A stretch of 48,602 nt of DNA from Lentisphaeria bacterium (lineage in GTDB: Bacteria > Verrucomicrobiota > Lentisphaeria > Victivallales > Victivallaceae), in assembly GCA_017466125.1 (NCBI GenBank), contig JAFTUS010000112.1, positions 1-48,602 on the forward strand, given 5' to 3'. This document shows positions 7,440 to 45,009 of the stretch, in pieces. The notes below the pieces were generated by a model. It had not been told where the DNA came from and did no database searches. It saw nothing but the letters and a program-made list of their open reading frames with translations. The translations under genes were made by a program, and so were the position numbers. Positions within the stretch are counted from its first letter, which is position 1; the number at the start of each line of letters is the position of its first letter.

Positions 7440-7994
7440 ATGCAACTTATTTTTGCTCTTTTGCTGGCTTTTCTTTCTCTGTTGGGAGAACTGCTGTGCG
7501 GTGCGCTGGGGGCGACTCCGCCGTTTCTGGCGATAACGGTCTTTTACCTTACCAAAGAAAATTCGCCCGCAGTTGGTATCTTTACTGCGATTTTCTGGGG
7601 ATTGCTTCAGGATCTTGCGCTGGGGCGGGATTTCCTTTTCACGCCCTTCAAACTGCTCATTCTTCTGGCGGTACTGCAACTGCTTTACCGCAAGCCCTGC
7701 CGTCATCTGGCAGAAGCATTTCCAGCGGGGGCGGTCATCGGGGCGGTCACTACGCTTGCCAACGCCCTCTGTGCCGGACTTTACGGGAATTTCCGTCCGG
7801 GCGGGGAGTTGGCGGCGGCTCTGTTTTTCAATTCGGCTGCCGTTGCGCTGTGGATGCCGGTACAACTTTTTTTCTCTGATTATCCGGCAGGGAAAATGAA
7901 ACTGCCGTTATTCTTCCAACCCGAAAAGACACCGGGCGGGAACCGTCAGCGGCGGATCCGTTCGCAGGTCATCCAGCGGGGGGAGAGGCCATGA
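7440..7994 (+). CDS. mreD: Rod shape-determining protein MreD
   Basis: Small polytopic membrane partner of MreC, 184 residues, with about five hydrophobic helices and a basic, glycine-rich C-terminal tail. Assignment rests on topology, the LLQDLALGRDFLFTPFK-type motif (G-x-L-Q-D in the family) and position between mreC and the PBP2 gene. GGGAGG lies just before the ATG, and the stop overlaps the next start by 4 nt (ATGA), indicating translational coupling. Confidence 0.9.
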   Translation: MQLIFALLLAFLSLLGELLCGALGATPPFLAITVFYLTKENSPAVGIFTAIFWGLLQDLALGRDFLFTPFKLLILLAVLQLLYRKPCRHLAEAFPAGAVIGAVTTLANALCAGLYGNFRPGGELAAALFFNSAAVALWMPVQLFFSDYPAGKMKLPLFFQPEKTPGGNRQRRIRSQVIQRGERP

Positions 7995-9829
7995 AAAAAG
8001 AGGAAGCGTTCAATCTGAACCAGTTCCGTCAGAAACGGCGGCTGGTCATTCTCAGTATTTTCTTTTTTGTCGGATTTCTGCTGCTGCTCATCCGTCTTTA
8101 CAATGAACAGATCCGCCACGGCGAACTGCATCGGGAACGGATCTCACGGCAATCCATCCGCCGCATCCGCATCCCGGCGAAACGGGGAAATATCTACTCT
8201 GCGGATCACAAACTGCTGGCGGGGAACTCCGGACAGATGCAGCTGCTTTTCTACCCCGAAGAGATGCGCGTCAGCAGCCGCCGCAGTAAAACGATCGACC
8301 ATATCGTTCAGTCGGCAGCAAGGATCGCCCATGCGGTCGGCCGCCCCTCTCCGCTCACAAGGGAGTCGGTGAGCCGTCATCTCTGGCGGCCGGGATTGCC
8401 GCTGGTCGTCTTCCACGATCTGACACCGGAGGAGGCGGCACGGGCACTGGAAGCATCGCGCAACATACGCGGGGTGGAACTCGATGAGACGGAAGTACGC
8501 ATCTATCCGCAGCAGAGCAGTGCGGCACATCTGATCGGCTACATTCAGCCGGACAGCCCGCAGCAGGCTCCGGACAAGGAGGATTTCTCTTATTACGTTC
8601 CCGACATGGTCGGCAAGGCGGGTCTGGAAAAGGCATTCGACCGTCTGCCGGGGACGGAGGAGCGTTCCGGTTTGCGGGGATTGCCCGGATACTCTCTGGT
8701 TCAGGTGGACAGTCTCGGTTTCATCCGCCAGACGCTCATAGAAAAGATCGAACCGCACCACGGCAACCATCTTGTAAGCACATTGGATCTTTCCGCCCAG
8801 CAGACGGCGGAAAAGGTGCTGGGCAACGAACGCGGTGCATTGGTGCTGGTGGATGCCTCAAACGGCGATATTCTGGCGGCGGCAAGCACTCCGGCATACG
8901 ATTTGAGCATGTTTTCGCCGAAGATCCCCCGCAACTACTACGATCATCTGCTGAAATCTCCGGGCAAACCGCTGATAAACCGGGCGTTGAACGGAACGTA
9001 TCCGCCCGGTTCCATTCTGAAACCATTGATCGCACTGGCGATTTTGAACGATGGACATACGGGGGATGAAAAGGTCGTCTGCGACGGCAAAACGGTTATC
9101 GGTGATGCCCGCATACGCTGTGCATCGTACCGGAGCGGCGGACACGGCGAACTGGATCTTGTCGGCGCATTGGCATACTCCTGCAATGACTATATGATCG
9201 AAAAAGGAGTTGCCGTCGGACACAGGAAACTCGAAGAGGTCCTGCACTCCGCCGGGATCGGCAGAAAGGCGGGAACGGAACTGCCGGAGGCATCCGGCGT
9301 ATTTCCCTCCAATCTGGAAAAGCGCAAACGTTACCGCTACAACTGGAACAGTTATGATACGGGACTTCTGTCGATCGGGCAGGGGATCATTACAGTAACT
9401 CCGCTTCAGGCGGCACTCTGGACGGCGGCGATCGCCAACGGCGGAAAGGTATGGAAACCGCATCTGGCACTGCGCATGGTGGATTCTCTCGGGAACACCA
9501 TTTACGAACGCCGTCCGCAGCTGACGGGAGAGTTGAAAACAACGCCGGAGGCGCTTGAAACCGTCCGCAAAGGGATGTTTGAAGTCGTCCATGACAGCAT
9601 GGGTTCCGGGCGTGAAGCGCGGATCGACGGACTGACGATCTGCGGTAAGACCGGTTCTGCCGAAGTGGGTTCCCGGCAGAACCGTTCACATATCACATGG
9701 TTTATCTGTTATTTTACGCACAAAGAGCGCACATACGCCATGGCGGTCATGGTTGAAGACGGCCGTTCCGGGGGAAAGACCTGTGCGCCCATCGCCAGAC
9801 GTTTTATCCGGCAGTGGTTGTTGAAGTAA
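7991..9829 (+). CDS. mrdA: Penicillin-binding protein 2 (elongasome transpeptidase)
   Basis: Class B penicillin-binding protein that cross-links lateral-wall peptidoglycan; 612 residues. It has one N-terminal membrane helix (about 18-34), the dimerisation/pedestal domain with IPAKRGNIYSAD near residue 61, and a transpeptidase domain with all three motifs: Ser341-x-x-Lys344 (PPGSILKP), Ser397-Cys-Asn399 (YSCND) and Lys553-Thr-Gly (CGKTGSAE). The start overlaps mreD by 4 nt. Order mreC-mreD-PBP2 is the standard elongation cluster; rodA does not follow, since the next gene is convergent. Symbol also used: pbpA. Confidence 0.93.
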   Translation: MKKEEAFNLNQFRQKRRLVILSIFFFVGFLLLLIRLYNEQIRHGELHRERISRQSIRRIRIPAKRGNIYSADHKLLAGNSGQMQLLFYPEEMRVSSRRSKTIDHIVQSAARIAHAVGRPSPLTRESVSRHLWRPGLPLVVFHDLTPEEAARALEASRNIRGVELDETEVRIYPQQSSAAHLIGYIQPDSPQQAPDKEDFSYYVPDMVGKAGLEKAFDRLPGTEERSGLRGLPGYSLVQVDSLGFIRQTLIEKIEPHHGNHLVSTLDLSAQQTAEKVLGNERGALVLVDASNGDILAAASTPAYDLSMFSPKIPRNYYDHLLKSPGKPLINRALNGTYPPGSILKPLIALAILNDGHTGDEKVVCDGKTVIGDARIRCASYRSGGHGELDLVGALAYSCNDYMIEKGVAVGHRKLEEVLHSAGIGRKAGTELPEASGVFPSNLEKRKRYRYNWNSYDTGLLSIGQGIITVTPLQAALWTAAIANGGKVWKPHLALRMVDSLGNTIYERRPQLTGELKTTPEALETVRKGMFEVVHDSMGSGREARIDGLTICGKTGSAEVGSRQNRSHITWFICYFTHKERTYAMAVMVEDGRSGGKTCAPIARRFIRQWLLK

Positions 9830-10489: not shown

Positions 10490-10606
10490 TTTTTATTCTC
10501 CTGTTTTTAATATTATTCGGGATTTCCCCTTATTAAAAATAGGAGAAAGTGTCAACATTTTCCTGTTTTTCAGCACAATAACCCCATATTTTCCTGAAAA
10601 TGGAAT

Positions 10607-10643
10607 AGAAAGACCTGCTCCGCAGTCTCGGGCAGGTCTTTCT
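10607..10643. terminator. 12-bp hairpin downstream of the 64-codon ORF
   Basis: Perfect 12-bp inverted repeat (10607-10618 with 10632-10643, arm AGAAAGACCTGC) with a 13-nt loop. Neither strand has a strong T tract right after it, so termination is possible but not shown. Confidence 0.55.
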
Positions 10644-10660
10644 GAATGTCTTTTCAAAAT

Positions 10661-10696
10661 ACGTTGCAGTACTTCTCTGTGGAAATACTGCAACGT
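10661..10696. repeat. 11-bp inverted repeat beside the 64-codon ORF
   Basis: Perfect 11-bp arms (10661-10671 with 10686-10696, arm ACGTTGCAGTA) around a 14-nt loop, 13 nt past the stop of the 64-codon minus-strand ORF. With the hairpin at 10607-10643 it forms a tandem pair of similar geometry and unrelated arm sequence. Confidence 0.6.
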
Positions 10697-10709
10697 GACA
10701 AATAATCAA

Positions 10710-10904
10710 TTATTTTAATTTACCGGGAAGACCGAACTTTTTTCCGGACTTGGCGGTATTGCTGTTACCAACATTGGCTGAACTTTGCGATTTTGATTTC
10801 TTCTGGTCCTCTATCTCTTTTATGATATCGCTTTCGTATGGGAAGCTGACCTGCCAATCAACACGTACAGTACGTCCATCTTTTACAACATTGATCTTTT
10901 TCAC
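10710..10904 (-). CDS. Small hypothetical ORF, 64 aa, possibly a gene remnant
   Basis: Lysine- and serine-rich small product, not recognised, with a strand-like segment GRTVRVDWQVSFPYE followed by a charged low-complexity tail. The start is GTG and no good ribosome site is visible. The same frame stays open for 11 more codons upstream (with CELCF) until a TAA that falls where a dispersed repeat element begins (10938). It may be the 3' end of a longer gene cut by that element. Translation is uncertain. Confidence 0.4.
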   Translation of the reverse strand: MKKINVVKDGRTVRVDWQVSFPYESDIIKEIEDQKKSKSQSSANVGNSNTAKSGKKFGLPGKLK

Positions 10905-10937
10905 CGTAAAACATAACTCACAAAGATCTTCTTTTGC

Positions 10938-11091
10938 TTAATTCGGAAAATTCTCTCAAGCTCAAACAAAATGGACTCCATGTGCGGAACAATTGTAAAA
11001 TACCCTGAAAAAGATAGCAAATTTGCGATTTTGGCGGAAAAATGAAAAAGCGGAATTTCAGATCGGTTCAAATCGATATCTGAAATTCCGC
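10938..11091. repeat. Dispersed repeat, copy A (ends in a long hairpin)
   Basis: About 150 nt that match, with scattered substitutions, the region 41744-42001. Shared blocks are TTCGGAAAA, CTCTCAA, CTCAAA and AAATGG at the left, CCTGAAAAAGATA and TTGCGA in the middle, and CGGAATTT with CTGAAATTCCG in the hairpin at the right. Copy A lacks about 100 nt present inside copy B. In both copies the hairpin end faces the 3' end of a minus-strand gene about 20 nt away. Confidence 0.75.
11041..11091 (-). terminator. Terminator of the coiled-coil lipoprotein gene
   Basis: A 14-bp perfect stem (11050-11063 with 11078-11091) is followed on the minus strand by CTTTTTCATTTTT, 18 nt beyond the lipoprotein stop. 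It is the right end of dispersed repeat copy A. Confidence 0.75.
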
Positions 11092-11108
11092 ATATTCTTT
11101 AATCTATT

Positions 11109-12551
11109 TTAGAAATTCAGCTTTTGCTGTTGTTTTTGGATTTTTTCTGTTTCAACATTCTTTTTATATTTCAGATAGAATTTATGATATGCTTTCATTT
11201 GCTGCTCATCATAAATTTTTACCGTGAGATCGCCATTTTTACAGTTGTAAAAATACTTTTGGGAAGGAACCCACCCAAGAAAAGAAGTAGATTCCATCTT
11301 GTTTTTTTTGTATTCAGCGTAGAATTCGTCAACAATTTGTTTCTGAAAAGAGTATGATCTGCTTCTGTAATGATCTGTAAATACGGTTTTGTATTCACTT
11401 CTGATGATTTGAACAACCTTGGCTCCTTTTTGGAACTTCACAATGTGTTCAAGAACATATCTGGTTAAAAAATTACGATAGGTGCGTTTTTCTTTTTGTA
11501 TGGTTTTTTGGGTTATGACAGCTCCGGGAAGCTCTTTTTTGTATTTTTCGATGAGAGCTTTCTCTATATTTTCGTCTGAGGGCCTGAACGCTAATCCAAT
11601 CAGCACTCCGGTATTAGCAGGAGTCATAGCTTCGCGGGCATAAACGAAAGTGACTCCTCCAATTTTTTCCTTGTGCCTATATCCTCCTCCGATAACACTT
11701 ATTGAGTCCACCAAAGCAGGAGTACGTGCATCATTTACAAGTTTCATTTTGTGAAGAACCAGACAATTCATGCCGGATTTGAAATCGCGCCAGAGAGGAA
11801 CGGAGGAGCTGCAGATATTTTTCTTCGGATAAAGGAAAGCGGGATTTTTCAAGTTTTTCTCTATCTCTTCTTTCAATTTTTCAGCTTCTTTTTGAGCGCT
11901 GCTCATAATGTCCTTTGCTTGGGTAATTTTGCTCTGCGCATCGCTGATATACTTTTCACCGTCGGCAATGTATTTTTTGCACTCCTGGATTTTCTCATCA
12001 ATTTTGCTTTTGGGGTGAACGTATGGTTTAAACATGTGTTTCCGGTTGGCTGTTGCTTCATCAATAATGACGGCACGGCGCTGCAGTTTTTTGAGTTCTT
12101 CATTATTGAGCTTAATGCTTTTCTGAGCTGTTTTTATTACCACTTCGGCACTTTTTATGCAGTCATTCCACTTTTTGCTTGTGAAACGTTCATTCATCCA
12201 CCTATTATTATCATGATCCAGTGGATCTACAAACCTCTCCGGCAAATTTTGGGCGGCGAGACTTGCTGCCGAGTCCAAATAAGCCATATAAGGCAATGTG
12301 GCATCGTCGGCGACGATCTGTCCGGGATTGTCTTTCTGATATTTTGCCCGCTCGCTCTGATATTTTTTGTATGCCTCTTCATAATTGTCCTGCCGCAAAC
12401 GCTCTCGTAAATGTTGATAAGCCAAACGGCTTTGAGCTTCCTGTGTGGCATTCAGAGCTGTCTTGGTTGCATTTTCCAATTCGGCACATCCGGCTGCAAA
12501 CATTGCAACCGCCAAAGATGCCGCACCGGCGAAAATCAGGGATTTTTTCAT
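11109..12551 (-). CDS. Hypothetical coiled-coil lipoprotein, 480 aa
   Basis: Not a known family to me. The lipoprotein signal peptide ends in F-A-A-G-C22. Long charged helices follow, with strong coiled-coil character at about 125-165 and 195-265 (KLRRAVIID-type and DGEKYISDAQSKITQAKDIM), then a mixed alpha/beta C-terminal half with VDSISVIGGGYRHKEKIGGV and a Lys/Gln-rich end. It is very rich in Lys and AT-rich against its neighbours, suggesting an accessory or fast-evolving surface protein. AAGGAAAG precedes the ATG. The 5' leader is about 195 nt if the promoter at 12754-12781 is used and contains nested inverted repeats; a hairpin terminator follows the gene. Confidence 0.85.
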   Translation of the reverse strand: MKKSLIFAGAASLAVAMFAAGCAELENATKTALNATQEAQSRLAYQHLRERLRQDNYEEAYKKYQSERAKYQKDNPGQIVADDATLPYMAYLDSAASLAAQNLPERFVDPLDHDNNRWMNERFTSKKWNDCIKSAEVVIKTAQKSIKLNNEELKKLQRRAVIIDEATANRKHMFKPYVHPKSKIDEKIQECKKYIADGEKYISDAQSKITQAKDIMSSAQKEAEKLKEEIEKNLKNPAFLYPKKNICSSSVPLWRDFKSGMNCLVLHKMKLVNDARTPALVDSISVIGGGYRHKEKIGGVTFVYAREAMTPANTGVLIGLAFRPSDENIEKALIEKYKKELPGAVITQKTIQKEKRTYRNFLTRYVLEHIVKFQKGAKVVQIIRSEYKTVFTDHYRSRSYSFQKQIVDEFYAEYKKNKMESTSFLGWVPSQKYFYNCKNGDLTVKIYDEQQMKAYHKFYLKYKKNVETEKIQKQQQKLNF

Positions 12552-12597
12552 TTTTCTTTCCTTAATTTTTTTGACTTTTTTCGGGGATACAGAAAAA

Positions 12598-12729
12598 GCG
12601 TATTCCCTTTAGCATAACAAGCCGGCAACGCCAATCGCCGTGATGATCCATGCAACAAGAGAATACGCCCACACGAGAGCGTACCTTGCTCAGACAGCAG
12701 GATCATCAATATAAAGAAAAATTGGCGTT
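12598..12729 (-). ncRNA. Candidate structured leader with nested and crossing inverted repeats
   Basis: Three exact inverted repeats occur in 132 nt. AACGCCAAT (12627-12635) pairs with 12721-12729, enclosing GATGATCC (12642-12649) with 12700-12707. GCGTATTC (12598-12605) pairs with 12661-12668 inside the inner loop, which would make a pseudoknot. It lies between a possible minus-strand promoter and the lipoprotein gene, so it would be that gene's 5' leader. I recognise no known riboswitch class. The rest of the gene-free stretch 12552-13020 is AT-rich and shows nothing else. Confidence 0.4.
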
Positions 12730-12753
12730 TTTGCTTGTACTGTAATCTGCCTG

Positions 12754-12781
12754 ATGATACGAAATTTTTTCAAAAGTTCAA
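12754..12781 (-). promoter_or_regulatory. Possible promoter for the lipoprotein gene
   Basis: Read on the minus strand: TTGAAC (12781-12776), a 16-nt spacer and TATCAT (12759-12754). Transcription would begin near 12747 and run through the inverted-repeat region into the lipoprotein gene. Confidence 0.45.
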
Positions 12782-13053
12782 GATGTTATAATGGTCTTAT
12801 AATTGTATTTCCTTTCTTGGTTGAAGAACATACAATTTAATATAACGCCCCGAATACCATTTGTCAAATGCCGCAGCATGGAATATCCACGGAAAGTGGC
12901 GAAACCGGTCAAACAACCCGAAACAGCAGAATAAATATCCTGTTTTATCTGTCTCTGTTATATTGAACGCCGGGAAAATGTAATTCTTGCAGTAAAAATA
13001 AAAAAATTTTAATATTTTTGGCTGTGTACTAAATATAGACTGATAAAAAAATC

Positions 13054-13262
13054 CGCGCGCAGCGCGTACCCCGCCCCGGGTCGTACCCGGACGTGATCCA
13101 GCGGCGGAACGCTGGTCGCCGCCTTAAAATGGCGGCGAAAGTACAAGCGCAGCGTCAACATTGCCGCATCGCGGCAATACCTCTCGCCGGGAGCGATGCC
13201 CCGAAAAAAGAGCGTAGCGTATTTTATCGGGGCGTTGAGCGGACGAAGCATTCCGAAGCCCC
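13054..13262. other. GC-rich hairpin cluster in an intergenic region
   Basis: About 210 nt of very GC-rich sequence inside AT-rich surroundings, holding consecutive hairpins: 13054-13066 (CGCGC/GCGCG), 13076-13090 (CCGGG/CCCGG), 13098-13115 (CCAGC/GCTGG), 13117-13137 (7 bp), 13160-13178 (8 bp with a 3-nt loop), and either 13198-13233 (7 bp) or 13229-13262 (GGGGC/GCCCC with an inner CGGA/TCCG). It lies just 3' of the kinase gene. It could be a structured RNA, a repeat element or transcription-end structure. The minus-strand ORF through it (13009-13296) is unsupported. Confidence 0.55.
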
Positions 13263-13270
13263 TGTAAAAA

Positions 13271-14596
13271 TCAGTCAACCTTTCGTACGGAGCCATATTT
13301 TTTCAGCAATACCCGTTTGATTTTTTCAAATTCGGAAAATCTTTTCTGAAATTCAGCCCAATCAGCAGAAAAATCAGTGTTTTCTATTCCCGGAATTTGC
13401 GCCAGAGCCGTTATCCGCCGCAACTCTTCATTGAGCCAGTCCAGCGCGGCAAAATATTGGAGAACCGGATCATTCTGATGTTCCCGGTCAAAGGCGGCAA
13501 TGGCATCATCTTTACGCCGGATCCGCAAAAAAGACTCCGGGTCACTGACCCAATCGGGATTTTTTTCTGCTTCGGCCAACTCTTCCTTTGAGATTGCTTT
13601 TTGAAAAGCCGTTGTTCCCGCCTGCATCCGATCGATACTCAAACGCTTCTTCTCCTGACGTAAAACCGGTAAAATTTTCTGCAATTTTTCATCCGGTACA
13701 AGCAATGCACAATACGGTACTGTTTTATCTTTGTAAGCGTGGATATCCACGACCGGTTCCGGAACGGCAGAGCGATCAAGAGACAGGAACCGCCCGACGG
13801 CAATGGTGGAAAAAAATACAGCGATCAATATCACGGAATACCAATATTTTTTCCGGCGTGACGGAGTATTTTCAGAACCTCTGATCCAGCGGTTGTATAA
13901 TGCAATTACTTTTTTGCACTCCGTCAAATCCAAATCCTCCGGGAAAGAGGGATATTTTTCAGGCGGATTTCCCGTCAGAGCGCAATAAACGGTTTTTCCC
14001 AGAGCGTAAAAATCATCTTCCCGGCAGAAACTCCGCAGTCCGGCAGCGGTTTGCGGCGAAACAAAAGCGGCGGTCCCGGCAAGGGATGCACCCTCTTTTT
14101 CAGTGACCAGTCCGATATCCCCCGGCATCGCTCTGCCGTTGACAAAAAGGATATTAGCTGGCTTGATATCTCTGTGAAGCACGCCCCGGCGATGAAGGGT
14201 TTTAATACACTCCTCCAACTGCAATGCAGTTTCCAGAAGTTCAGAGGCCTTTATTCTGCCATACTTTTCCATGCGGTTTTGAAGAGTGTCTGCTTCGTAT
14301 TGACCGGAATCAGCGGAAAGGTTGTCAGCGGCATCCATCGTGTAGTAGAAAACGCCGTCGGCTTCGCCGATATGGTATATCTGCATAAGACTGCTTTGAC
14401 GGCATATCGCCTGATATTGGCGGAGACCGTTTCTTTCCCGTTCCCTGAAATCCGTTTGTTCCGACAGGATTTTCAGCGCACACTCCCTGCCGGAGACGAC
14501 ATCACGGGCAAGAAAGACAGAACCGTATGCACCGGTTCCGCAGTGGAGCAAGAGCCGATAGTTTCCGAGCCGGTCGCCGCTCCTGTGATCAGCCAT
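13271..14596 (-). CDS. Transmembrane Hanks-type Ser/Thr protein kinase
   Basis: Membrane-anchored eukaryote-like kinase, 441 residues from the ATG at 14596, which has AGGAAAG 2 nt upstream (the ATG at 14608 is also possible). The kinase domain covers about 12-215: glycine loop GTGAYGSVF (20-28), Lys42 in CALKIL, catalytic loop HRDIKPANIL (141-150), and GDIG (159-162) in place of DFG, which keeps the metal-binding Asp160. A short activation segment ends in SPQ rather than APE. One membrane helix (about 251-270) leads to a roughly 170-residue extracytoplasmic helical domain of unknown type, perhaps a sensor. The start overlaps the sigma-factor gene by 8 nt, so kinase and sigma factor are made together. 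Substrate unknown. Confidence 0.9.
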   Translation of the reverse strand: MADHRSGDRLGNYRLLLHCGTGAYGSVFLARDVVSGRECALKILSEQTDFRERERNGLRQYQAICRQSSLMQIYHIGEADGVFYYTMDAADNLSADSGQYEADTLQNRMEKYGRIKASELLETALQLEECIKTLHRRGVLHRDIKPANILFVNGRAMPGDIGLVTEKEGASLAGTAAFVSPQTAAGLRSFCREDDFYALGKTVYCALTGNPPEKYPSFPEDLDLTECKKVIALYNRWIRGSENTPSRRKKYWYSVILIAVFFSTIAVGRFLSLDRSAVPEPVVDIHAYKDKTVPYCALLVPDEKLQKILPVLRQEKKRLSIDRMQAGTTAFQKAISKEELAEAEKNPDWVSDPESFLRIRRKDDAIAAFDREHQNDPVLQYFAALDWLNEELRRITALAQIPGIENTDFSADWAEFQKRFSEFEKIKRVLLKKYGSVRKVD

Positions 14597-41663: not shown

Positions 41664-41743
41664 ATTGCTTCCGTATTAAACGCAGACACATCTGCAAAAA
41701 ATGTAATTACCCGAAAGTTTTCACAGATATCCTCGGGGTTGTT

Positions 41744-42001
41744 TTAATTGTTCGGAAAACATCTCTCAACCTCAAAATGGTTGCGAGTCAGTGAAAAAAG
41801 GTTATCGCTTCGCTAACTCGCGAAAATATCTCTGTTTTCAGCATTTTTGAAAACAGAGAAAAATTTTCAGCTCAACCGAAAGGACTTTTTCTCCGAAACA
41901 ACTGCAAATTGCCCCTGAAAAAGATATCAACTTGCGACTTTGCCGAAGAAATAAAAAAACGGAATTTTAGATAGCCGCAAAGGCTGTATCTGAAATTCCG
42001 T
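41744..42001. repeat. Dispersed repeat, copy B
   Basis: Second copy of the element at 10938-11091, carrying about 100 extra nt (roughly 41780-41880) that contain further hairpins, including a 12-bp stem TCTCTGTTTTCA (41829-41840) with 41848-41859. The whole gene-free stretch 41600-42023 is the hydA terminator plus this element. Confidence 0.7.
41951..42001 (-). terminator. Terminator of the small paralogue gene cluster
   Basis: Stem 41959-41973 with 41987-42001 (15 positions, one imperfect pair) with an extra inner GCC/GGC, followed on the minus strand by TTTTTTTAT. It is the right end of repeat copy B and lies 22 nt after the last paralogue. Confidence 0.75.
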
Positions 42002-42023
42002 ATACACTGCCCCCCCTGCAATG

Positions 42024-42312
42024 TCAGCCCATTCTCAATGCCTCCGGCGGCAAATCAGAAAGAATTTCTCTGATCGATTTGTCTCGAGTCTGATTTACTT
42101 TTGAATTAAGGATCGCTTCAGCAAGTTCTTTCTCATTTTCATCAAATCCGTATTCTTGTTCATCTTCGCAATCTTCTTCTCTTTCTGTTAAAATATACCC
42201 ACCTGAACTTAATTGATACCTCAACCCGTTATAATAAAAAACAAATCATCCTTCTCCGGATTATCAAAACACTCATAAAATTTATCCACGCAGTTTTTAC
42301 TTCCATTCCCAT
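42024..42312 (-). pseudogene. Third immunity-like paralogue, broken by two 1-nt deletions
   Basis: Closely related to 42619-42909. Reading from the ATG at 42312 gives MGMEVKTA, then a missing base in the sense codon TTG (near 42288) shifts the frame. A second missing base near 42232, within the sense FFDY codons, shifts it again. With both restored the product would read on through the intact 3' frame (YQLSSGGYILTEREEDCEDEQEYGFDE and NSKVNQTRDKSIREILSDLPPEALRMG). An ATG at 42224 could still yield a 66-residue C-terminal piece. Same spacing and ribosome-site context as its siblings. Confidence 0.8.
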
Positions 42313-42325
42313 ATTAAATCCTTAA

Positions 42326-42607
42326 TTATACCAGTAATTTTTCCGGAGGAAGTTCCAACAGCATTTCCCGGATTGATTTATCACGAGTCTGATTTACTTT
42401 GGAATCTAAAACTGCTTCAACAAATTCTCTGTTGTCGCCAGCAATACAATATTCCATTTCATCCCCGGTTACAAGATCTTCTGTGATAATATATCTTCCC
42501 CAATAGCTGATCATATAATTCAAGCCGTCATAATCAAACATCAAATTATCTGTATCGTTTTTTTCTATATTTGCATAAAATTTATCAAGAGCAGTTACCA
42601 TTTCCAT
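42326..42607 (-). CDS. Immunity-like small acidic protein, paralogue 2
   Basis: A 93-residue acidic protein starting MEMVTALDKFYANIEKND; the ATG at 42607 has AAAGGAT 6 nt upstream and is preferred over the GTG at 42622. It shares with paralogue 1 the pattern TALDKFY, the F-DY-GL-Y core, E-----VNQ-RDKSIRE and ELPPE, at perhaps half identity, so it has diverged much more than copies 1 and 3. Small acidic proteins in tandem behind a toxin-like gene are typical of immunity-gene arrays. No named family was recognised. Confidence 0.75.
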   Translation of the reverse strand: MEMVTALDKFYANIEKNDTDNLMFDYDGLNYMISYWGRYIITEDLVTGDEMEYCIAGDNREFVEAVLDSKVNQTRDKSIREMLLELPPEKLLV

Positions 42608-42618
42608 ATTAAATCCTT

Positions 42619-42909
42619 TCACCCCAGCCAGATTGCTTCCGGCGGCAATTCAGCAAGGATTTCTCGGATGCTTTTATCACGAGCTTGATTTACTTTTGAA
42701 TTAAGGATCGCTTCAGCAAGTTCTTTTCCAGTTTCATCAAAACCATATTCTTGTTCATCTTCACCATCTTCAGTTCTCCATGTAAAAATATAGCAGCAAG
42801 AACTCAACTGATAACTTAATCCTTCATAGTCAAAAAACAAATCATCCTTTTTAGGATTTTCAAAACACTCATAAAATTTATCCAACGCAGTTTTTACTTC
42901 CATTCCCAT
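42619..42909 (-). CDS. Immunity-like small acidic protein, paralogue 1
   Basis: A 96-residue acidic protein beginning MGMEVKTALDKFYECFENPKK, with the core LFFDYEGLSYQLSS and a C-terminal NSKVNQARDKSIREILAELPPE. Its start lies 16 nt inside the 3' end of the upstream MGGRGAS gene, with AAAGGATTTTAT before the ATG, so the two are tightly coupled as expected for a toxin and its immunity gene. The core resembles small immunity proteins seen behind phage-linked polymorphic toxins, by memory only. Function inferred from context. Confidence 0.75.
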   Translation of the reverse strand: MGMEVKTALDKFYECFENPKKDDLFFDYEGLSYQLSSCCYIFTWRTEDGEDEQEYGFDETGKELAEAILNSKVNQARDKSIREILAELPPEAIWLG

Positions 42910-43295
42910 ATAAAATCCTTTCTGCCTGTAGCTTTTTCTATTGCATTTTTGTACTTTACTATATCTGACTTGCTTAAAGGCGAATGTGCTTTTTCACGTT
43001 CGCCATTTTGCCATTTGTGACAATGAACAGCTTCTTTGGGATGTTTATCAAAAGGATGCCCCCAGTCAATATCTTTTTTTACATTGCCATTTTTATCATA
43101 TACTCTTAATTGCTTTACTGTTCCATATTGAGTTTTTCCCAAATATTGCGAATTCGGTTTTGCTGTTGTCGGCAGTATTTTGCCTTTGGGATCTGAACTT
43201 TTTATAATCGGTATGCCATGAGCTTTCCCCACTGTTCTGTATCCTCTCGGCGCACGTCCGCTTCTTCCGCCGTAACTTGCTCCTCTTCCTCCCAT
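42894..43295 (-). CDS. Small MGGRGAS-type protein, candidate polymorphic toxin
   Basis: A basic 133-residue protein. The N-terminus MGGRGASYGGRSGRAPRG is a Gly/Arg-rich leader of a kind I associate with phage-linked proteins. The C-terminal 80 residues hold a compact domain with YGTVKQLRVYDKNGNVKKDIDWGHPFDKHP, then VHCHKW and REKAHSPLS, that is, a D-x-D-x-x-H and H-x-H-x-W pattern that could be a nuclease-type active site. AAGGAG precedes the ATG, which lies 1 nt after the DUF4417 stop. Followed by three immunity-like paralogues. A toxin role is inference; a phage accessory protein is the alternative. Confidence 0.65.
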   Translation of the reverse strand: MGGRGASYGGRSGRAPRGYRTVGKAHGIPIIKSSDPKGKILPTTAKPNSQYLGKTQYGTVKQLRVYDKNGNVKKDIDWGHPFDKHPKEAVHCHKWQNGEREKAHSPLSKSDIVKYKNAIEKATGRKDFIWEWK

Positions 43296-43296
43296 A

Positions 43297-43850
43297 TTAT
43301 TGTTTCTCCTTATAACTTACACCGCGATGGCCGTATTTCCAAGTCATTGAAGTGTTTGAAAACGAAATAATTTCGTAATTTCCTGATTTTAATTCATCCG
43401 GAACTTTTCCGTAAAGGATGATTTTGTCAGGATTCAATTTTTCGATCATTGCTTCAAATCCACGCAAAAATATCTTGCGGCACTCTTTGGAGTACATTGT
43501 CCCAACAGAGGAAACAGCAACAACAGAACCGGGAGTTATGCCATCAAAACAATAATCAAAACTGTCAATGTCTGCCCACGAAACTGTTGGAATGACACGG
43601 CATCCGGATCGCTGCATCATTTGTCCGAGAAGTCTGGAACGGTAAACATTCCAGATTTTCATTGCTTGCGGCATATCCGTATACAATGAAAAATCCGGAA
43701 AAAGCACAACATCAAAATTTCTTAAATGCGGTATATAACGCCAAGGTAAACGCCACACTCTTTCAAAACGGAAATCATCCAGAAAGAAATGAATTCCACA
43801 AGAAAATTGTGTACTTCGCAAAGAATGACAAAAATTAATCAGCGTATAAA
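43297..43850 (-). pseudogene. DUF4417 protein gene, 5' end missing
   Basis: The conserved part of a DUF4417 domain is clear: LINFCHSL, CGIHFFLDDFRFERVWRLPWRYIPHL, FDVVLFPDFSLYTDMPQAMKIWNVYRSRLLG, VIPTVSWADIDSFDYCFDGITPGSVVAVSSVG and DKIILYGKVP. The family is found on phages and mobile elements of gut bacteria and its function is unknown. Upstream of about 43850 the frame runs into sequence antisense to an IS3 transposase, so the natural N-terminus (tens of residues) is lost. A downstream start could still express a shortened protein. Linked to the MGGRGAS gene by a 1-nt gap. Confidence 0.75.
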
Positions 43851-43884
43851 TGTAAAAGATTATACCGCGTGTCAAATTGCAGCC

Positions 43885-44253
43885 ATGAAACGCAGGATGG
43901 CGATCTTGGAAGAAGAAAATCAAATTTTTCGCCGGAGTGGATGCGGTACATCAGCCTCAATTGATGAAAAGGTTGCTGCTGTAAAACAACTTCAAGATAA
44001 TTTTTCAATTCACGCAATTTGTCGTACTCTCAATTTGACAAAAGGTACATACTATAACCGCTTGTACCGAACTCCTGCAGAAACTGTTTTTGAGCAGCGC
44101 AATGATGAATTGTCATCGATCATAAAAGAAATATTCGAAGTAAGCAATGGACGGTTCGGTGCAAATATGATCCATGTTAAAATGCGAGAGCAGGGAATTG
44201 TCGTATCAAGAAAGCATGTGAAAACCTTGATGAATAGAATGCAATTGGTCAGT
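43885..44253 (+). mobile_element. IS3-family transposase internal fragment
   Basis: About 123 codons of IS3-type transposase: the end of an OrfA-like leucine-zipper region (MKRRMAILEEENQIFRR) fused in frame to the N-terminal HTH_21 part of OrfB (FSIHAICRTLNLTKGTYYNRL, then ELSSIIKEIFEVSNGRFGANMIHVKMREQGIVVSRKHVKTLMNRM). The DDE catalytic domain, the OrfA helix-turn-helix and both terminal inverted repeats are absent, so this is a dead scrap left by deletion. It separates the DUF4417 gene from the 5' gene fragment at 44254-44528. Confidence 0.8.
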
Positions 44254-44528
44254 CGGCAGATGCCTCCGGTTCTTTTCAATACCCGCAGCAGAAGAGCTGC
44301 GAGACAACCGCTCTTTTTCTCTGCCGGAGTTTCTATCGCACAAACTTCCGCCCAATACGCTTCCCGTTCCGGAGTATCTCGCCATGGCGGCAATTGCGGC
44401 GGCTTTGGTAATAGTGGGTATTTTGACCAGTCTGCGCTCATGTTTATTGTATTTACTTGATATTTTGTTTCGTTGTATTGACAGATGCAATCAAAGTTAT
44501 CCTGATTTCCCGACAAAGATTTTTCCAT
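44254..44528 (-). pseudogene. 5' fragment of an unidentified gene, cut by IS3 remnant
   Basis: A frame with a very good start: promoter TTGCAA-N17-TATATT and AAAGGA 8 nt before the ATG at 44528. About 92 residues (MEKSLSGNQDNFDCICQY start; then SADWSKYPLLPKPPQLPPWR, DTPEREAYWAEV and KKSGCLAALLLRVLK) precede the IS3 junction, after which the frame is antisense to the transposase. It was probably the first gene of the operon that continued into DUF4417 and the toxin/immunity-like genes. No family recognised. The opposite strand also has an open frame with a membrane-helix-like segment, but without start signals. Confidence 0.55.
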
Positions 44529-44550
44529 GAGAGTTTTCCTTTCAACAGTT

Positions 44551-44579
44551 AATATAACAGAGCAAGGTACTTATTGCAA
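44551..44579 (-). promoter_or_regulatory. Promoter of the broken accessory operon
   Basis: Minus strand: TTGCAA (44579-44574), a 17-nt spacer and TATATT (44556-44551). The predicted leader is short, with the ribosome site right after the start of transcription. Confidence 0.7.
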
Positions 44580-44610
44580 GCGGAAACTCTCATTTCCCAT
44601 TTTCTTACAT

Positions 44611-44791
44611 CATACGGAGCGTGAGCGGAGTGCTTCATATCGGAATGAAATGAAGATGCTTCATATTGTGGAGTGAAACGAAACAATGCTTCATCGTCAG
44701 GCTTTTATGAAGCACGGCTTCGCCGTATGAAGCGGCACGTTGTGCCATGAAGCGCACCTGCGGTGCATGAAGCGAAGCCTGACGGCTTCAT
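44611..44791. repeat. Tandem hairpin-unit array beside tRNA-Pro
   Basis: Four ATGAAGC boxes at 44707, 44727, 44747 and 44767 are spaced exactly 20 nt apart. Each of the first three is followed by a 13-nt hairpin with a 5-bp stem and 3-nt loop: ACGGC/GCCGT, GGCAC/GTGCC and GCACC/GGTGC. Outside them CGTCAGGCTT (44695-44704) pairs with AAGCCTGACG (44775-44784), closing a multi-branched structure. Inverse boxes GCTTCAT occur at 44632, 44658, 44688 and 44785, and the left edge begins with CGGAGCGTGAGCGGAG. It holds no gene. Confidence 0.85.
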
Positions 44792-44792
44792 T

Positions 44793-44820
44793 TTTTTTTG
44801 CCCAAATTTGGGCAAAAAAA
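44793..44820. repeat. 28-nt perfect palindrome abutting the tRNA-Pro 3' end
   Basis: TTTTTTTGCCCAAA (44793-44806) and its exact complement (44807-44820), touching the CCA end of tRNA-Pro. Read from the tRNA, seven Ts come first, then a GCCCAAATTTGGGC hairpin. The T run could end tRNA transcription; the palindrome may also be part of an integration junction. Confidence 0.8.
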
Positions 44821-44900
44821 TGGTCGGAGTGACAAGATTCGAACTTGCGACCTCTTGGTCCCGAACCAAGCGCTCTAATACCAGGCTGAGCTACACTCCG
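44821..44900 (-). tRNA. tRNA-Pro (CGG anticodon)
   Basis: An 80-nt cloverleaf with encoded CCA: acceptor CGGAGTG/CACTCCG (C1-G72, as usual for bacterial tRNA-Pro), D arm GCTC/GAGC, anticodon stem CTTGG/CCAAG with loop TTCGGGA, T arm GCAAG-TTCGAAT-CTTGT. The D loop, AGCCTGGTATTA, has 12 nt, three more than a common tRNA-Pro. The mobile-looking island starts at its 3' end, fitting use of this tRNA as an insertion site. Confidence 0.95.
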
Positions 44901-44915
44901 ACTTAATAGAAAGAT

Positions 44916-44943
44916 AATATATCCCGGTTTTTATAAAAGTCAA
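44916..44943 (-). promoter_or_regulatory. tRNA-Pro promoter
   Basis: Minus strand: TTGACT (44943-44938), a 16-nt spacer and TATATT (44921-44916), 15 nt before the tRNA 5' end. Confidence 0.7.
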
Positions 44944-45009
44944 GCCGAAATTCAAAAAAAGATCATTTTTTCCAATAATGTTGATGAAAATTACCGATCC
45001 GGAAAAAGC

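Follow-up and report, generated by a model that had tools for sequence, protein, structure and literature searches.

A dispersed 210-nt element of Lentisphaeria as the probable distal tail of small islands at tRNA-Pro and tRNA-Val genes

Overview

A dispersed element found in Lentisphaeria is probably the conserved tail, on the distal or attachment side, of small islands whose insertion sites are the 3' ends of tRNA-Pro and tRNA-Val genes. Two of its copies, c1 and c2, lie in the window, which is the whole stretch of 48,602 nucleotides that was analysed. The order of the parts, their orientation, the tRNA specificity, the sharp ends and the head-to-tail junctions are all observed and, in a subset of the islands, so is a repeat of the tRNA 3' end. 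The proposed unit would begin with the tRNA 3' end and continue with a short proximal signature, one to a few accessory genes on the strand of the tRNA, often a hairpin, the core of about 210 nt and a second tRNA 3' end. Such units may follow one another head to tail.

Distribution and subtypes of the element

A search across 137 genomes of the order with the Pro-type core and its hairpin gave matches in 33, all of them from two families, and a group-1 copy used as query found relatives in 27 of the 78 genomes of the family. A pattern made from one end of the element matched 26 times, in 13 of these 78 genomes, and the hairpin pattern matched in 11 of them; the reversed controls of the former and the control patterns of the latter gave no match. 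Most of the genomes examined are fragmented assemblies. The named relatives are Lentisphaeria assemblies, several of whose titles give the gut of sheep and roe deer. There are two main subtypes of the core, group 1 and group 2/L, and the profile of each finds the other. Flanks are exchanged exactly at the core ends: the loci L151 and L157 have only the right side in common, L164 and L165 only the left. Two loci from assemblies of two different genera, L088 and L104, share a 1.9-kb stretch with a truncated element in it at 98.6% identity, which is due either to recent transfer or to a binning error.

Anchoring at tRNA-Pro and tRNA-Val genes

ARAGORN, run on the fetched loci, identified genes for tRNA-Pro and tRNA-Val next to the elements. 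The relation was tabulated for 54 copies, taken from the group-1 and Pro-type search lists together with c1, c2 and G085:C106, a copy from another genus; the weakest matches were excluded, as were copies that lie at a contig end and have hardly any sequence upstream, and a few short-flanked copies were kept. In 23 of the 54 copies a tRNA gene (17 tRNA-Pro and 6 tRNA-Val) is found no further than 7.5 kb upstream, on the cargo side. All 23 are on the cargo strand with the 3' end facing the element, and within 7.5 kb the nearest upstream tRNA is never of another kind or orientation. On the other side of the element tRNAs occur at six copies and are mixed in both respects. Of the 41 copies whose upstream flank extends over 3.2 kb or more, 20 have a facing tRNA-Pro or tRNA-Val within 3.2 kb (c2 is one of them, c1 is not). 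On the mirror side the figure is 2 of 33, and random points drawn from the same loci give 7.8%; P is 4e-12 by the binomial and 7e-5 by the Fisher test. This test is conservative, because the random-point background is raised by the choice of loci. The subtype of the core, assigned by profile score, agrees with the tRNA in all 23 cases, the 6 tRNA-Val copies belonging to group 1 and the 17 tRNA-Pro copies to group 2. The islands so delimited are 0.27-3.1 kb long in the 20 well-flanked cases.

The same data bear on an alternative that we regard as unlikely, namely that the element is a free-standing, MITE-like repeat, which some transposase inserts downstream of genes, and that its proximity to tRNAs reflects general insertion hot spots. 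A mobile repeat of this kind would account for the low copy number, the core length of 208-214 nt and the sharp ends on both sides, where many matches begin and stop on the identical query base. The weak inverted similarity of the core ends, which pair weakly in the consensus fold, is also in its favour, as is the fact that of the 41 well-flanked copies 21, including c1, have no tRNA within 3.2 kb. Such a repeat does not, however, predict that only Pro and Val tRNAs are found, on one strand only, or that the core subtype foretells which of the two it will be. Target-site duplications, which the sequence-only reading had proposed to define, are not visible at the element's own two ends, and inspection by eye of the flanks of 35 unique group-1 matches revealed none. 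Nor were there any copies in 38 loci (102 kb) around Y1 transposase and integrase genes. A repeat dependent on a Y1 transposase was discarded as a candidate, since Y1 matches occur in 29 of the 78 genomes and none of the 38 Y1/integrase loci scanned carries an element copy.

Island ends and head-to-tail units

The reading of the element as the tail of tRNA-anchored islands draws further on the two ends of the islands. After the CCA of the tRNA, Pro islands often begin with TTTTTTTGCC..GGCAAAAAAACATGAAGCC and most Val islands with TTTTTGCCTGCGGCAAAAATGGTGAATGAAGCC. At the far end of several Pro-type cores the sequence ..GCGAAAATGGTCGACCATTT.. repeats the end of tRNA-Pro, and the far end of the copy G023:C68 reads CGCCCACCATTTT, the end of tRNA-Val. 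Of the 54 copies, 13 have the tRNA end CGACCAT within their distal 70 nt (background 0.55%), and 5 have CCACCAT in the distal window (background 0.46%). A stretch of at least 9 nt is common to the tRNA end and the distal end in 9 of the 23 islands, compared with 4.1% of controls; 14 of the 23 share fewer than 9 nt, and at the distal end of c2 the tRNA sequence is degenerate, with only 5 nt shared.

Thirteen tRNA-adjacent sequences were used to build a profile of island starts, which gave 24 matches in the fetched loci (617 kb). Fifteen lie after a tRNA (mostly the training set), seven immediately behind an element's distal end and two elsewhere, one of these two following what by eye is a tRNA-Val-like 3' piece. 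Since seven island starts come directly after distal ends, the units stand head to tail. An orthologous empty tRNA site was sought at the thiamine locus beside the full-length relative L118, in the genus of G078, and none was found, the relatives with the thiamine genes having no tRNA there. Congeners gave no clean empty site for c1 or c2 either; the gene next to c1 is absent from them, and the hydrogenase adjoining c2 is at most 66% identical.

The two copies in the window

The similarity between c1 (10938-11091) and c2 (41736-42001), from which the sequence-only reading had started, is real. With the hairpins excluded the local alignment score is 60, whereas the scores of 1000 dinucleotide-shuffled pairs average 20.4 and do not exceed 31. 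When c1 was used as a blastn query against its own genome, c2 was recovered at 41860-42004 (75% over about 145 nt, E=1.9e-18). The same genome holds more element copies at contigs C212 and C123 and, at C47, a 28-nt fragment of the element end, so that the two are not a mere pair. Both conditions that the sequence-only reading had named as refuting it, no further genomic copies and an alignment no better than shuffled sequence, therefore fail.

The core of c2 (41736-41944, minus strand) is of the Pro type and forms the distal tail of its island; a terminator-like hairpin (41948-42010, minus strand) stands between the core and the last cargo gene. By sequence comparison the core of c1 (10927-11040, minus strand) is a full-length Pro-type core minus 99 nt. 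Its terminator-like hairpin module, with a T-run on the minus strand, occupies 11041-11100, and the adjoining 480-aa accessory gene (11109-12551, minus strand), which has a lipoprotein-like N-terminus and no family, lies in a low-GC patch. The position of the hairpins, about 20 nt past a minus-strand accessory gene according to the earlier reading, was measured, and the distance from the stop codons at 11109 and 42024 is 8-23 nt. That reading had also noted about 100 extra structured nucleotides in c2 only. They are present, and the extra stretch is the ancestral state, because full-length relatives carry it. The alignment of c1 to L118 leaves a gap of about 99 nt, at the ends of which L118 has two copies of GCTCAAAC, 99 nt apart. 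On this comparison c1 fits the full-length type from which 99 nt were deleted between the two GCTCAAAC repeats.

The nearest tRNA-Pro on the same strand is 33.7 kb away from c1, which is read as an orphan, decayed copy without its former island context. GC content is 0.37-0.44 in the window patches 10501-13500, around c1, and 42001-45000, and mostly 0.47-0.58 elsewhere. No special meaning was found in the overlap of the far end of c1 with a 64-codon open reading frame, to which attention had been drawn. As for the suggestion of a small non-autonomous element, the element is indeed dispersed, bounded, untranslated and non-autonomous, and it travels with accessory genes; it probably does not stand alone, however, but forms one end of a larger unit, with a tRNA gene at the opposite end.

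The c2 island and the cargo of other islands

The c2 island extends from tRNA-Pro to the core (41736-44820), with a GC content of 0.39 against 0.51 for the window, and its order is tRNA-Pro, toxin/immunity-like genes, hairpin and tail. The anchor, tRNA-Pro (cgg), occupies 44821-44900 on the minus strand with its 3' end facing the island. The proximal start signature, px, follows 28 nt after it (44705-44793, minus strand). The cargo, all on the minus strand, comprises a DUF4417 protein (43297-43923), a 133-aa protein that resembles a toxin C-terminus by its position (42894-43295) and three tandem immunity-like paralogs: paralog 3 (42619-42909, 96 aa, with 87% amino-acid identity in G085), paralog 2 (42326-42622, 98 aa) and paralog 1 (42024-42224, 66 aa, with a shortened frame). 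Pfam had no match for the 133-aa protein or the paralogs, and the toxin-like and immunity-like labels are suggested by gene position. The stretch 42024-43295 has the look of an orphan toxin with stacked immunity genes. In G085:C106 the core, hairpin, paralogs and tRNA-Pro are colinear with the c2 island at 77-86% identity, one short piece reaching 95%. A frame with an HTH_21 domain lies inside the c2 island on the opposite strand (43789-44460) and is probably the remnant of an insertion sequence.

Among the cargo seen across the islands are an AccI-like restriction enzyme and the accompanying methylase, a Fic protein, an AriA/AbiL-like ATPase and genes of the toxin/immunity-like kind. The restriction enzyme and methylase form the cargo at L269 (13156-15799), where the methylase frame ends inside the element tail. 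At L263 (10119-11866), in a tRNA-Val island, the AriA/AbiL-like ATPase is followed by a 167-aa gene without a family, and the two are a candidate defence pair. One and the same tyrosine-phosphatase-like gene (Y_phosphatase2; L130 at 7736-8683, L120 and L126) precedes two unrelated genes in different genomes, and both of these are then followed by the element.

Anatomy of the core and the hairpin

In both subtypes the core contains two 16-nt direct repeats (TTCGGAAAACATCTCT and variants), 67 nt apart. Both repeat places pass the cut in 18 of the 28 collected sequences, both subtypes included. In the c2 core the first copy of this arm-like repeat, TTCGGAAAACATCTCT, lies at 41751-41766 and the second, diverged copy, TCGCGAAAATATCTCT, 67 nt further on at 41818-41833.

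The hairpin is terminator-like and is a module separable from the core. Among 17 oriented hairpins a gene end lies within about 52 nt in 11 and the core on the other side in 7; at L093 the hairpin comes directly after tRNA-Pro.

Two further readings of the element were considered. The first, a conserved regulatory RNA or 3' UTR cassette, is very improbable. The folding of hairpin-less c2, which is better than that of shuffles (z of about -4.2 to -4.5), is what a structured RNA would show, but group 1 shows no unusual folding (z -0.2 to -0.9) and c1 without its hairpin likewise does no better than shuffles. The Rfam scan yielded no family above the gathering score, with matches far below threshold only, and a regulatory RNA would leave the tRNA specificity unpredicted; a structured RNA was thus rejected for group 1 on the fold scores and the Rfam result. 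To the second reading, in which group 1 is a conserved small gene of 64 codons on the cargo strand, we give scarcely any credence. The frame is open in 14 of 16 group-1 copies, but variation is flat over the codon positions (0.096, 0.105 and 0.090), dN/dS is about 0.86, and the copies in the window have no intact frame. The flat variation led to the rejection of a small gene.

Proposed mode of integration

Site-specific integration fits the tRNA-anchored island, because its arrangement is tRNA 3' end, island, tail and tRNA 3' end again. A site-specific recombinase would join the tRNA 3' end to the tail; it would probably be a tyrosine recombinase supplied from elsewhere. The two direct repeats in the core may be its arm sites, a reading suggested by their fixed spacing and by the match between tail subtype and tRNA. 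In the circular junction of an excised island the end of the tail would be joined to the island start (...AAAATGGTCGACCATTTTTTTGCC...); no circular form was seen. Tentatively, and as a possibility that we hold somewhat short of even, the islands may be short cassettes of gene plus tail, without a recombinase gene, that are added head to tail at tRNA-Pro and tRNA-Val by a recombinase acting in trans, the subtype of the tail picking the tRNA and the stock consisting of toxin-immunity, restriction and other defence genes.

No intact integrase or active recombinase was found among the scanned cargo proteins of the 23 islands. The sole trace of an integrase is a DUF6538 fragment of 120 aa that lies adjacent to tRNA-Pro in G016:C11 and has three weak viral relatives; DUF6538 is presumably an integrase N-terminus. 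A phage or plasmid origin of the element was dismissed, as c2 had no match in phage and plasmid collections and the exact end pattern had none in viral contigs.

Cassettes that gather in arrays recall integrons, and an attC-like site, in which a gene and its 3' site would make up the unit, has in its favour both the head-to-tail units and the position of the core relative to genes. A same-strand frame of at least 80 aa stops within 0-50 nt of the core in 12 of the 26 group-1 copies that are right-complete, the genes being otherwise unrelated in general; a random point has such a stop in a 14-nt window in 1.8% of draws, and the independent number behind the 12 is smaller, because several of the genes are relatives of one another. 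An integron-like site is nevertheless extremely improbable. An integron integrase above the cut-off is present in only 1 of the 78 genomes, G021, which itself has no element match; no GTTRRRY core is seen by eye at the ends; and group 1 lacks unusual folding. The classical integron site is refuted by the lack of an integron integrase in the element-bearing genomes among the 78. The precise gene boundaries had also given rise to an early reading as a self-contained gene-plus-element cassette, which the tRNA result superseded.

Comparison with known systems

The tail core, the start signature and the tRNA end together provide a signature with which to search the accessory gene pool of this gut lineage, known here mostly from metagenome assemblies. 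If confirmed, the tRNA-anchored islands would show by what means islands so small, lacking a recombinase gene, can hold to a fixed target, and the idea of one enzyme with two tail specificities serving all of them would become testable. No integrase-bearing parent of the Lentisphaeria islands came to light. A literature search that covered few subscription journals returned no paper that describes islands of this kind from Lentisphaerae or Victivallales, which does not imply their absence in print.

Integron cassettes and CALINs, in the account of the latter given in PMC11389934, consist of a gene and a 3' site, form arrays and are moved in trans; the present islands differ from what is described there in that they lack both an integron integrase and the attC core motif and are anchored at tRNA ends. 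Tycheposons, as presented in PMC10872708, are cargo islands of 4-200 kb that start at a tRNA gene and use a tyrosine recombinase. The islands described here likewise carry cargo from a tRNA gene onward, but they measure 0.27-3.1 kb and no intact recombinase was seen in them. The ssrA islands of Dehalococcoides are reported in PMC3146451 to lie in tandem on the downstream side of a small RNA gene, with a 20-bp repeat of the end of that gene as their boundary, and 15 of them are without an integration module; by that report the target is tmRNA and the recombinase a CcrB-like serine recombinase, whereas the targets here are tRNA-Pro and tRNA-Val. The cis-mobilizable elements (CIMEs) outlined in PMC5704250 are islands bounded by attL and attR that lack integration or transfer genes and stand in tandem at one target gene. 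Like the CIMEs of that outline, the tRNA-anchored islands stack in tandem, and no intact integrase was seen among the scanned cargo; unlike the CIMEs, they are units of 0.27-3.1 kb with one to a few genes, in which unrelated cargo is joined to a common tail of about 210 nt.
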